Assembly: GCA_036567965.1 (NCBI GenBank)
Contig: DATCTN010000021.1
Span: forward strand, 134,906-198,905
DNA length: 64,000 bases
Reading direction: 5' to 3'
From: Candidatus Kryptoniota bacterium
GTDB lineage: Bacteria; Bacteroidota; Ignavibacteria; Kryptoniales; JAKASW01
Below are positions 2,133 to 14,517 of this stretch, one piece after another; the stretch's first letter is position 1, and the number at the start of each line of letters is the position of its first letter. The notes under the pieces are model-generated. The model made no database searches. It worked only from the letters and a program-made list of their open reading frames with translations, and had not been told where the DNA came from. Both the position numbers and the translations under genes were made by a program.

Positions 2133-3641
2133 ATGAAACAGGTTGCCCATTCCATTGGCGAGCTGAGGAAGAGCGGTTACAAAGTTCTCTCCGTTAAAGA
2201 GGAGATGAGGAGGAACCTTATCGCGAGACTCGACAAGGGGGAGTCGCTTTTCCCGGGAATCATCGGATACGACAAGACTGTAATCCCTTCCATTGTCAAC
2301 GCGATTCTCGCGAAGCACGACATCATACTCCTCGGCTTGCGCGGGCAGGCGAAGACGAGGATTGCACGGAGCCTAATCGGTCTTCTCGATGAGCAGGTGC
2401 CCGTAATCAGGGGATGTGAGATCAACGATAGCCCGTTCAATCCTGTTTGTAAACGTTGCACAGACCTGGTCGCAGAACGGGGCGACGATGTCGAGCTGGA
2501 CTGGCTGAGGCCCGAGCAGCGTTACGGCGAGAAACTCGCAACACCTGACGTGACGATCGCGGATCTCATCGGCGACATCGATCCTATAAAGGCTGCAGTG
2601 CAGAAACTCCATTACTCGCATGAAGGCGCAATCCATTTCGGGATAATCCCAAGAACAAACCGGGGAATATTTACAATTAACGAATTGCCCGACCTTCAAC
2701 CGCGCATCCAGGTTGGGTTATTCAACATCATGCAGGAAAAAGATATTCAGATTCGCGGGTTCAATGTCAGGATTCCGCTGGACGTGATGATGGTTTTCAC
2801 CGCGAATCCGGAAGATTACACGAATCGCGGAAACATAATCACCCCTCTCAAAGACCGTATTGATTCCCAAATACTCACCCACTACCCGCGGTCGATAGAC
2901 GAGGCGATGAAAATAACCGAGCAGGAAGCGTGGTTCTCTCGCGACAGCGGGCGAGAATTGATCATGCCGCATTACATCAAAGAGGTTGTCGAGGAAATCG
3001 CTTTCCAGGCGAGAGGAAGCGAGTTCGTGGACCAGAAGAGCGGCGTGAGCGTCAGAATGACAATTTCAGTCATGGAGAACCTTATCAGCAGCGCCGAGCG
3101 CCGCGCAATCATAAACAGGGAAAAGCAAATCGTTCCGCGCATATGCGACCTCCACCAGGTGCTCCCCGGCATGACGGGAAAACTGGAGCTGGTGTTCGAG
3201 GGCGAGCAGGAAGGCTCGGTCAAGGTAAGCCGCGCACTTATCGGCAAGGCGGTTAGAGAAACATTCAAGAAATATTTTCCCGATCCCCTTCAGAAAAAAA
3301 TGAGGAACACCGCCGGAGAAGAACCGAAAAAACGCGACGACGAGTATACTCAAATAATTTCGTGGTTTGAATCTGGAAACAAGATTGAAGTAGCCGACGA
3401 TATGCCGTTCGATGAGTATTACGCCGAACTAAGTAAAGTCTCGAACCTCAAAGAGGTCGCCAAGAAACACATGAAGGTGGAGGAATCGAACAAATACGAG
3501 CTTGCCACTTCGATGGAGTTTGTGCTGGATGGACTCCACCAGTTCTCGCGCATCGCGAAAGACGACGCGGACAACGTTATATCGTACAAGGATCTCGTCG
3601 GGAGCATCTTTCCGCCGAAAGGAAGATACGAGGAAGACTGA
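2133..3641 (+). CDS. AAA+ ATPase of the magnesium-chelatase ChlI/MoxR type
   Basis: 502 residues from ATG 2133, chosen by the Shine-Dalgarno and the promoter position; an ATG at 2112 would add seven residues. Walker A is GLRGQAKT (68-75). A ChlI-like insert with Cys95, Cys106 and Cys109 (VCKRC) may bind metal. The Walker B-like strand is GIFTINELPDL (Asn-Glu instead of Asp-Glu), sensor 1 is VFTANPEDY, and a likely arginine finger lies in LKDRIDS. The C-terminal ~150 residues are charged and specific to this group. Such ATPases usually work with a VWA protein to remodel or insert cofactors into a target, and a VWA gene follows two genes downstream. No porphyrin genes are nearby, so a true Mg-chelatase role is unlikely. 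Confidence 0.85.
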   Translation: MKQVAHSIGELRKSGYKVLSVKEEMRRNLIARLDKGESLFPGIIGYDKTVIPSIVNAILAKHDIILLGLRGQAKTRIARSLIGLLDEQVPVIRGCEINDSPFNPVCKRCTDLVAERGDDVELDWLRPEQRYGEKLATPDVTIADLIGDIDPIKAAVQKLHYSHEGAIHFGIIPRTNRGIFTINELPDLQPRIQVGLFNIMQEKDIQIRGFNVRIPLDVMMVFTANPEDYTNRGNIITPLKDRIDSQILTHYPRSIDEAMKITEQEAWFSRDSGRELIMPHYIKEVVEEIAFQARGSEFVDQKSGVSVRMTISVMENLISSAERRAIINREKQIVPRICDLHQVLPGMTGKLELVFEGEQEGSVKVSRALIGKAVRETFKKYFPDPLQKKMRNTAGEEPKKRDDEYTQIISWFESGNKIEVADDMPFDEYYAELSKVSNLKEVAKKHMKVEESNKYELATSMEFVLDGLHQFSRIAKDDADNVISYKDLVGSIFPPKGRYEED

Positions 3642-13775: not shown

Positions 13776-13998
13776 TTTTCACTTCCATTTACAATTAAAC
13801 ATATGTGATTTGACTATGAACTCATATTGGTAAACTAGAGGTACGCGCGTTCTTTGTAGTACAACCTCCGTGATTTGTGCGAAGTTCCGGTTTGGCAATT
13901 GATTGAACTTTGTGAGATCTTCCTTGATCGTAGACCGAGGCGGGACGGCGGATGGCCCTTTTCCATAAAGGTTTGTTGAGTTATATTACAAAACACCG

Positions 13999-14073
13999 CG
14001 GGGCGTGGCTCAGTCCGGTTAGAGCGCTTGGTTCGGGACCAAGAGGTCGTGGGTTCGAATCCCACCGCCCCGA
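13999..14073 (+). tRNA. tRNA-Pro (anticodon CGG)
   Basis: Full cloverleaf: acceptor CGGGGCG (13999-14005) with CGCCCCG (14066-14072), D-arm GCTC/GAGC, anticodon stem CTTGG/CCAAG with loop TTCGGGA (anticodon CGG, G37 as usual in tRNA-Pro), variable AGGTC, T-arm GTGGG-TTCGAAT-CCCAC, discriminator A. CCA is not encoded (ACA follows). A TATATT box lies at 13982-13987 but no clear -35. Two degenerate copies of this tRNA follow in tandem. Confidence 0.97.
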
Positions 14074-14288
14074 CAAAAGAAAAATCAGAGCCGAAGGCGG
14101 TTAGAGCGTGGCGCGTATGGCGCCAAGGTCGTGGGTTCTCCCGAAGGGATCCGCCTCCGGCGGAGAATCCCACCGCCCCGACAAAAGAAAAATCAGAGCC
14201 GAAGGCGGTTAGATCGTGGCGCCTCAGGCACCAACGTTGTGGGTTCTCCCGAAGGGATCCGCCTGCGGCGGAGAATCCCACCGCCCCG
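14073..14288 (+). repeat. Two 108-bp tandem tRNA-Pro-derived repeats with palindromic insert in the T-loop
   Basis: Units 14073-14180 and 14181-14288 have a period of exactly 108. Each starts ACAAAAGAAAAATCAGAGCC, then a D-arm remnant GGCGGTTAGA(G/T)CG, an altered anticodon-arm-like hairpin (TGGCG...CGCCA in unit 1, one mismatch in unit 2), and the T-stem GTGGG/CCCAC with the acceptor strand CGCCCCGA. The T-loop is split between TTC and GAAT by 26 bases (14139-14164 and 14247-14272). These form two adjoining hairpins: TCCC-GAA-GGGA and TCCGCC-3-GGCGGA. The 5' acceptor strand is lost, so these are not functional tRNAs. The second unit ends seven bases before the DUF167 start. Confidence 0.85.
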
Positions 14289-14295
14289 ACAAAAG

Positions 14296-14517
14296 ATGTA
14301 TCTCAAGGTTAAAGTCCATCCAAATTCCCGAGTTGACACCGTATTGCGAAAAGCTCCCGACAGCTTGGAGGTATTCGTCCGGGCGAAGCCGGTAGATGGC
14401 AAAGCAAACGATGCCGTTAGAAAACTCCTTCTCGACTTCCTGAAAGTCCCCGCGAGCAAACTTCGTTTGATTCGGGGGGCGACTTCACGCAGTAAACTCT
14501 TCGAACTCGTGGTTTAA
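14296..14517 (+). CDS. DUF167 (YggU) family protein
   Basis: 73 residues. The whole protein is one DUF167 domain: KVKVHPNSRVDTV, FVRAKPVDGKANDAV, LLLDFLKVPASKLRLIRGAT. Small cytosolic alpha/beta fold, function unknown. The frame is open upstream through the tandem repeats, but the domain begins exactly at ATG 14296, so the repeat-encoded extension is not counted. There is no clear Shine-Dalgarno (only AAAAG). The short distance to the tRNA repeats suggests co-transcription with tRNA-Pro. Confidence 0.88.
   Translation: MYLKVKVHPNSRVDTVLRKAPDSLEVFVRAKPVDGKANDAVRKLLLDFLKVPASKLRLIRGATSRSKLFELVV

Follow-up and report, generated by a model that had tools for sequence, protein, structure and literature searches.

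Hairpin-bearing tRNA-Pro copies in a Kryptoniota genome as probable relics of a tRNA-linked GIY-YIG element

We analysed a 64,000-nucleotide stretch of DNA (the window) from a Candidatus Kryptoniota bacterium, in which an intact tRNA-Pro gene is followed by two tandem tRNA-derived units and a short open reading frame (ORF) that we take to be YggU/DUF167-like. The features of the locus were as follows.

13999-14074, plus strand: intact tRNA-Pro (anticodon CGG), the host tRNA of the proposed element (ARAGORN; Rfam RF00005, 71.4 bits)
14057-14080, plus strand: 24-nt direct repeat GAATCCCACCGCCCCGACAAAAGA, copy 1, formed by the tRNA 3' part and 6 nt (repeat analysis)
14075-14182, plus strand: unit 1, displaced tRNA-Pro copy, 5' acceptor strand missing (repeat analysis)
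14109-14125, plus strand: unit 1 hairpin TGGCGC-GTATG-GCGCCA, which replaces the 17-nt anticodon arm (sequence)
14139-14164, plus strand: unit 1, 26-nt double hairpin in the T-loop (11 + 15 nt; triloops GAA and TCC) (sequence)
14165-14188 and 14273-14296, plus strand: direct repeat GAATCCCACCGCCCCGACAAAAGA, copies 2 and 3 (repeat analysis)
14183-14290, plus strand: unit 2, second displaced tRNA-Pro copy, 93% identical to unit 1 (repeat analysis)
14217-14233, plus strand: unit 2 hairpin replacing the anticodon arm, stem partly decayed (sequence)
14247-14272, plus strand: unit 2, 26-nt double hairpin in the T-loop (sequence)
14296-14517, plus strand: YggU/DUF167-like ORF, conserved neighbour and anchor for the comparison of the locus between species (ORF)

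Repeat analysis showed that the units have an exact period of 108, with the 24-nt repeat present three times at that spacing, and that both are tRNA-Pro copies without the 5' acceptor strand. Together with ARAGORN and Rfam, it bore out the original prediction of a tRNA-Pro followed by two 108-bp tRNA-derived units of exact period, although the predicted span (13999-14288) stopped 2 nt before the end of the second unit. The near-identical 26-nt double hairpins predicted between TTC and GAAT of the T-loop were found between TTC and GAA(T) and differed by 1 base, and the predicted rebuilding of the anticodon-like arms was confirmed in both units. No further copy of the 26-nt insert was found in the window with up to 3 mismatches, and none appeared in 100 shuffles either. 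Palindromes of the form TCCCG...CGGGA numbered 3 against 1.44 expected and are therefore no window-wide feature. RNA folding of the units showed a slight gain over shuffles (z of -2.7 and -1.4), so fold energy was dropped as evidence and the case was built on comparison. A group I intron in the tRNA was rejected, since nothing interrupts the tRNA-Pro and Rfam returned tRNA only. The 108-bp units held no coding genes. Spurious ORFs cross the tRNA and the remnants at 13835-14281 (minus strand) and 14028-14312 (plus strand) and could reach protein databases as false genes.

The original prediction proposed a search of the genome for further copies of the insert, and the search found them both in tRNA-derived sites and elsewhere. 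In the window's own genome (G000; 4.15 Mb, 32 contigs, 46 tRNAs above the Rfam cut-off), comparison with the tRNA table placed all 7 exact occurrences of GGTTCTCCCGAAGG downstream of a tRNA, within about 200 nt. Reading of the sequences gave at least 13 sites with palindrome-bearing tRNA-derived copies, namely at Pro-CGG, Pro-TGG, Pro-GGG, Lys-CTT, Val-GAC, Val-TAC, Arg, two Met, an fMet array, Leu-CAA, Ser-GCT and Ser-CGA. When only the core pattern was searched, with the T-loop flanks left out and up to 1 mismatch, G000 had 10 places at 9 sites, of which 7 were tRNA-derived, 1 was intergenic and 1 was in a protein gene. In this last site (L093, contig C16, about 2992-3009), close to the 3' end of the gene, which presumably encodes a secretion-signal domain, a related palindrome lies in frame, much as Rickettsia palindromic elements do. 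Elsewhere in G000 (L207, contig C7, 269500-276100), a palindrome occupied the T-loop of a tRNA-Met remnant about 5 kb from the intact tRNA-Met, and a second palindrome cluster lay about 300 nt away. Contig ends often fell in or beside tandem arrays (L208, contig C20, 10500-20431; L088, the start of C30; many of the loci L286-L365), so copy numbers are probably underestimated.

A small GIY-YIG-type ORF preceded several of the palindrome-bearing tRNA copies. G000 had 16 matches to PF01541. Nine genes were of the tRNA-linked type, of which 5 adjoin intact tRNAs (at 3 to about 770 nt) and 4 lie within the fMet-tRNA copy array, where palindromes occur in the D-loop and T-loop; 4 genes from a different GIY-YIG subfamily had no tRNA beside them. 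All members of an 18-member alignment (A1) matched PF01541, and Y5, Y16, G18, R26 and E62, which we take to be catalytic, were invariant. The nearest solved relatives were UPF0213 proteins (PDB 1zg2, E 3e-16; 1ywl, E 6e-14), followed by SLX1, and I-TevI was marginal. Few of the 18 matched PHROG homing endonuclease families (phrog_314: 4), and 7 matched the NCBIfam group I intron endonuclease, with the displayed member under its cut-off. Plasmid, phage and viral collections were also considered as a source of carriers and set aside, as they returned nothing beyond tRNA matches, no match to the pattern, or Listeria and Bacillus homologues of 35-40% identity.

We then measured how closely this nuclease is linked to tRNA genes. 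The nuclease profile at 1e-8 matched 72 of 100 genomes of the class and 125 of 198 genomes of the phylum. An intact tRNA was found within 200 nt of the gene in 87 of 110 class loci, a set made up of the automatic loci and 80 stretches in listed order and not a random sample; it was on the same strand in 86 of the 87 and upstream in 65. Among the 80 loci flanked by 1 kb or more in each direction the count was 70, and the chance expectation of such proximity is about 0.8% per gene. No tRNA lay within the fetched stretch in 18 of the 110 loci, many of which were at contig ends. The phylum search gave 20 further loci, one of which (L384) duplicates a place among the 110, and 17 of them had a tRNA within 200 nt (12 of 14 outside the class). 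At L261, the nearer 'Cys' called by ARAGORN is a remnant, and the locus was treated as Pro-CGG in the tree and hairpin statistics but still as Cys in the linkage count. A scan of named genomes for the T-loop-insert pattern returned 48 stretches, nearly all from Ignavibacteria, Bacteroidota, Marinimicrobia or Calditrichia and including the isolate Tangfeifania diversioriginum. At least 7 of the 48 (L146, L152, L163, L168, L169, L178 and L187) were without tRNA-like context. L178 and L187 are likely chance matches, and the other five belong to a repeat family of the Bacteroidetes MAG DeMMO3_9 that shares the double hairpin, there placed between genes and outside tRNAs.

Displaced tRNA fragments accompanied the nuclease on the side away from the tRNA. 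With the tRNA upstream, a 3' fragment of that same tRNA followed the nuclease gene in 51 of 65 cases (11 of 325 in the control with other tRNAs), and with the tRNA downstream, a 5' fragment lay ahead of the gene in 15 of 21 (control 3 of 105). A script test on the 65 upstream cases scored the T-loop as uninterrupted in 24, carrying an insert in 12 and missing its own 5' side (lost or substituted) in 13, while 16 had no fragment. Remnants with a whole T-loop usually had another arm swapped; for Gln, Ala, Val, Gly, Lys and Pro-CGG this was the anticodon arm. Asp remnants differed in that the T-arm itself was swapped. Over 55 distinct remnants, tRNA sequence mostly resumed about 18, 17 or 31 nt from the 3' end, and a perfect stem of at least 6 adjoined this 3' block in 40 of the 55, compared with frequencies of 4.5% in shuffles and 6.5% in random windows. 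The position of the break depended on the amino acid, with a purity of 44 of 55 against a highest value of 43 in 5000 permutations. These statistics are independent of the selection for pairing in the double-hairpin alignment (A2) described below.

The positions of the hairpins bear on the core of the original prediction, that mobile palindromes of the Rickettsia type entered tRNA duplicates; on this reading the duplicates would be dispensable and the nuclease a separate passenger. Rickettsia palindromic elements and REP-type palindromes are short and dispersed through the genome. Those in G000 are likewise short and dispersed, and the in-frame palindrome at L093 adds to the likeness. The TCCCGAAGGGA motif recurs throughout the FCB group, and 11 of 30 fetched places of the unbiased core pattern were not tRNA-derived (19 were; the split was made by eye). 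However, the hairpins in the remnants sit at fixed landmarks set by the tRNA type, differ widely in sequence, often take the place of a tRNA arm of equal length and are tied to a nuclease gene, and remnants that lack the T-loop insert usually have another arm swapped. Fixed landmarks with such different sequences are unlike the random entry of one repeat. We consider independent mobile palindromes an unlikely explanation of the units, and the original reading is partly supported: related palindromes do occur outside tRNAs, once in frame, but the hairpins of the remnants are held to tRNA landmarks.

Alternatively, the remnant could be a working structured RNA, such as a tRNA-like decoy, a processing signal or a regulator of the nuclease mRNA, with its fold under selection. 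Arm-for-arm replacement retains a cloverleaf-like outline, and ARAGORN calls one remnant tRNA-Cys. The hairpin stems also vary with compensation, both in A2 and in an alignment of Asp T-arm remnants (A3; 6 hand-chosen rows only), although the pairing in A2 is partly there by construction, because its script demanded full pairing and its loci came mostly from the TCCCGAAGGGA pattern. One AT-rich 22-nt match was left out of the 22-nt list. Every changed pair in both alignments was Watson-Crick and one-sided G-U steps were absent, a pattern more readily expected of DNA palindromes than of RNA helices. The remnants also lack the 5' acceptor strand, the window units gave modest fold z-scores, and relics persist without the nuclease. 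A selected RNA fold is in our judgement rather improbable.

The tRNA-Pro/yggU locus was compared across 13 genomes of the genus. All 13 had the YggU-like gene, and the sequence upstream of it varied in state, with element-bearing and element-free alleles coexisting at the site. In L221, the tRNA-Pro was accompanied by two GIY-YIG genes with a Pro remnant after each. L222 had a GIY-YIG gene and then a remnant with the TGGCGC/GCGCCA arm and an uninterrupted T-loop; its first unit (locus L263), which lies between the tRNA and the nuclease and in which the nuclease is almost gone, is an intermediate towards the state of the window. L215-L217 had only a decayed nuclease start directly 3' of the tRNA (judged by eye), L218 had a remnant with a rebuilt anticodon arm and without the T-loop insert, and L220 and L225 had a clean site. 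GIY-YIG ORFs were also present in L223, and the locus argument leaves out the rest of L223 together with L214, L219 and L224. The TGGCGC/GCGCCA anticodon arm is common to the window units and to L218, L221 and L222, and the same stem occurs in the Pro-CGG remnants L273 and L360, whose hosts belong to other families. The rebuilt anticodon arm belongs to the GIY-YIG element and is common to its nuclease-bearing relatives. Contrary to the condition that would have refuted the original prediction, namely no other copy of the insert in the genome and an identical locus in all distant relatives, further copies were found and the state of the locus varied between relatives. A tRNA-Cys (ACA) called by ARAGORN at L221 2123-2193 (minus strand) is in fact a tRNA-Pro remnant in remodelled form and could mislead annotation.

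To describe target fidelity, we built a tree of 99 nuclease proteins (at least 75 bits, a same-strand tRNA within 700 nt, identical proteins used once) by a quick method with no mixture model. The best match in another host family had a tRNA of the same amino acid for 63 of the 99 proteins (permutation mean 12.9, maximum 29) and the same isoacceptor for 48 (mean 6.0, maximum 17). The tree showed 25 changes of amino acid, 38 of isoacceptor and 51 of host family, and nuclease lineages track tRNA identity more closely than host family. No YggU-like gene was found beside Pro-CGG elements of other families in the fetched stretches, which indicates that the nuclease follows the tRNA and not the neighbourhood. 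Long vertical residence at a tRNA with changed neighbours could look similar.

We found two further explanations very hard to credit. In ordinary tandem tRNA duplication followed by decay, the hairpins would be due to chance; the 24-nt repeats and the exact period do amount to tandem duplication, but the tRNA linkage, the remnants of the element's own tRNA, the 13 or more such sites in G000 and a hairpin frequency far above that of shuffles contradict it. Equally remote is that the units are att-site scars of a classical island. Direct repeats of a tRNA 3' end are typical of integrase-borne islands, and integrative elements in tRNA 3' ends leave the tRNA intact and displace a 3' tRNA fragment, as is seen here. 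However, there is no integrase between the repeats, the units are 108 bp (0.1-0.4 kb over the elements described here), the full versions hold only a GIY-YIG gene between the repeats with tRNA and remnant within a few hundred nt of it, the remnant is altered by hairpins, and 5'-fragment forms exist too.

The sequences show the anatomy of the nuclease-bearing loci, their tRNA linkage, the remnants, the hairpin positions, target fidelity and presence or absence within the genus. In the complete element an intact tRNA comes first, followed, usually after 0-70 nt, by the start of a GIY-YIG gene of about 80 codons and then by a displaced copy of that tRNA, which is missing its 5' end and in which a perfect hairpin either replaces or extends one arm. 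In a mirrored arrangement, 5' fragment and nuclease both precede the tRNA. The window units are probably nuclease-less relics of such an element, a small, selfish, homing-like GIY-YIG element that targets tRNA genes. Of the original claim that a palindrome entered a duplicated tRNA and spread by tandem duplication, the duplication and the recurrence of the insert family in the genome stand, whereas the unit itself appears to be the tail of a tRNA-linked GIY-YIG element.

For such an element we infer DNA cutting, homing or mobility, and a role for the hairpins. The nuclease would cut the corresponding tRNA gene of DNA that lacks the element, and repair templated by the element-bearing copy would install the cassette with the intact tRNA kept or rebuilt. 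The leftover half of the target would become the remnant, in which the hairpin may break the recognition sequence. Breaks and direct repeats could also drive tandem amplification, and in the window the nuclease genes would have been lost and the hairpin-bearing copies left behind.

The closest described system, in the available portion of its report, is SegB of phages T4 and T6, a freestanding GIY-YIG homing endonuclease that cuts within tRNA genes with a preference for RAWTSGAAC (PMC13096335). According to that portion, SegB is found near tRNAs in many phages, and tandem tRNA-segB repeats arise through homologous recombination (PMC13096335). The likeness lies in the GIY-YIG gene beside tRNA genes, the cutting inside tRNA genes and the tandem tRNA-nuclease repeats. 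SegB belongs to phage genomes, whereas the present elements are in bacterial chromosomes; the same portion of the report has no displaced hairpin-bearing tRNA remnants, and no isotype preference is reported for SegB (PMC13096335), whereas the present nuclease lineages track their tRNA. In sequence, the present nucleases are nearer to UPF0213/SLX1 than to I-TevI or SegB. The UPF0213 or bacterial Slx1-like GIY-YIG proteins (1zg2, 1ywl) are the closest solved sequences, but the available text on them mentions no linkage to tRNA genes (PMC1564403), and the present genes are multicopy, tandem and beside tRNAs.

The SegB motif, when reverse-complemented to GTTCSAWTY, fits the T-loop, a comparison made in the present analysis and not in the SegB report as available (PMC13096335). 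The window tRNA-Pro carries it and neither unit does; in its strict form it occurs in only 15 of the 46 tRNAs of the genome itself. The putative target is disrupted in remnants, yet intact in the tRNA that adjoins the nuclease. The tRNA-Pro is identical in element-bearing L222 and empty L220, so the putative target is kept beside the nuclease and the homing reading does not account for its sparing from self-cleavage; for SegB, the authors call self-damage an open problem in the portion of their report available (PMC13096335). The displaced regions with an uninterrupted T-loop (24 of 65) and those with no 3' fragment (16 of 65) also count against homing.

A search of the open-licence PubMed Central literature, with subscription papers and preprints outside its scope, yielded no description of tRNA-linked GIY-YIG elements in chromosomes that are accompanied by remodelled tRNA remnants, and the wider family is apparently undescribed. 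Tentatively, the elements may represent a large chromosomal GIY-YIG family of Bacteroidota-group bacteria that parasitises essential tRNA genes without self-splicing or integrase sites; the tRNA would stay or be made whole again, and the leftover target would be disabled when a DNA hairpin takes the place of a cloverleaf arm at the arm boundary. There are hints of a structure-guided, SLX1-like nuclease that reads tRNA genes as cruciforms, an idea drawn only from the similarity to SLX1 and the breaks at arm boundaries. Tools for tRNA finding and assembly call for caution in any case: ARAGORN took a remnant for a tRNA, and contigs frequently break off in the arrays. If the reading is true, it would account for the multiple small GIY-YIG genes, and for the unusual tRNA-like fragments, of many Bacteroidota genomes, would extend the phage-based story of tRNA-linked GIY-YIG nucleases to bacterial chromosomes, and would offer a natural experiment on the persistence of a selfish nuclease within an essential gene.
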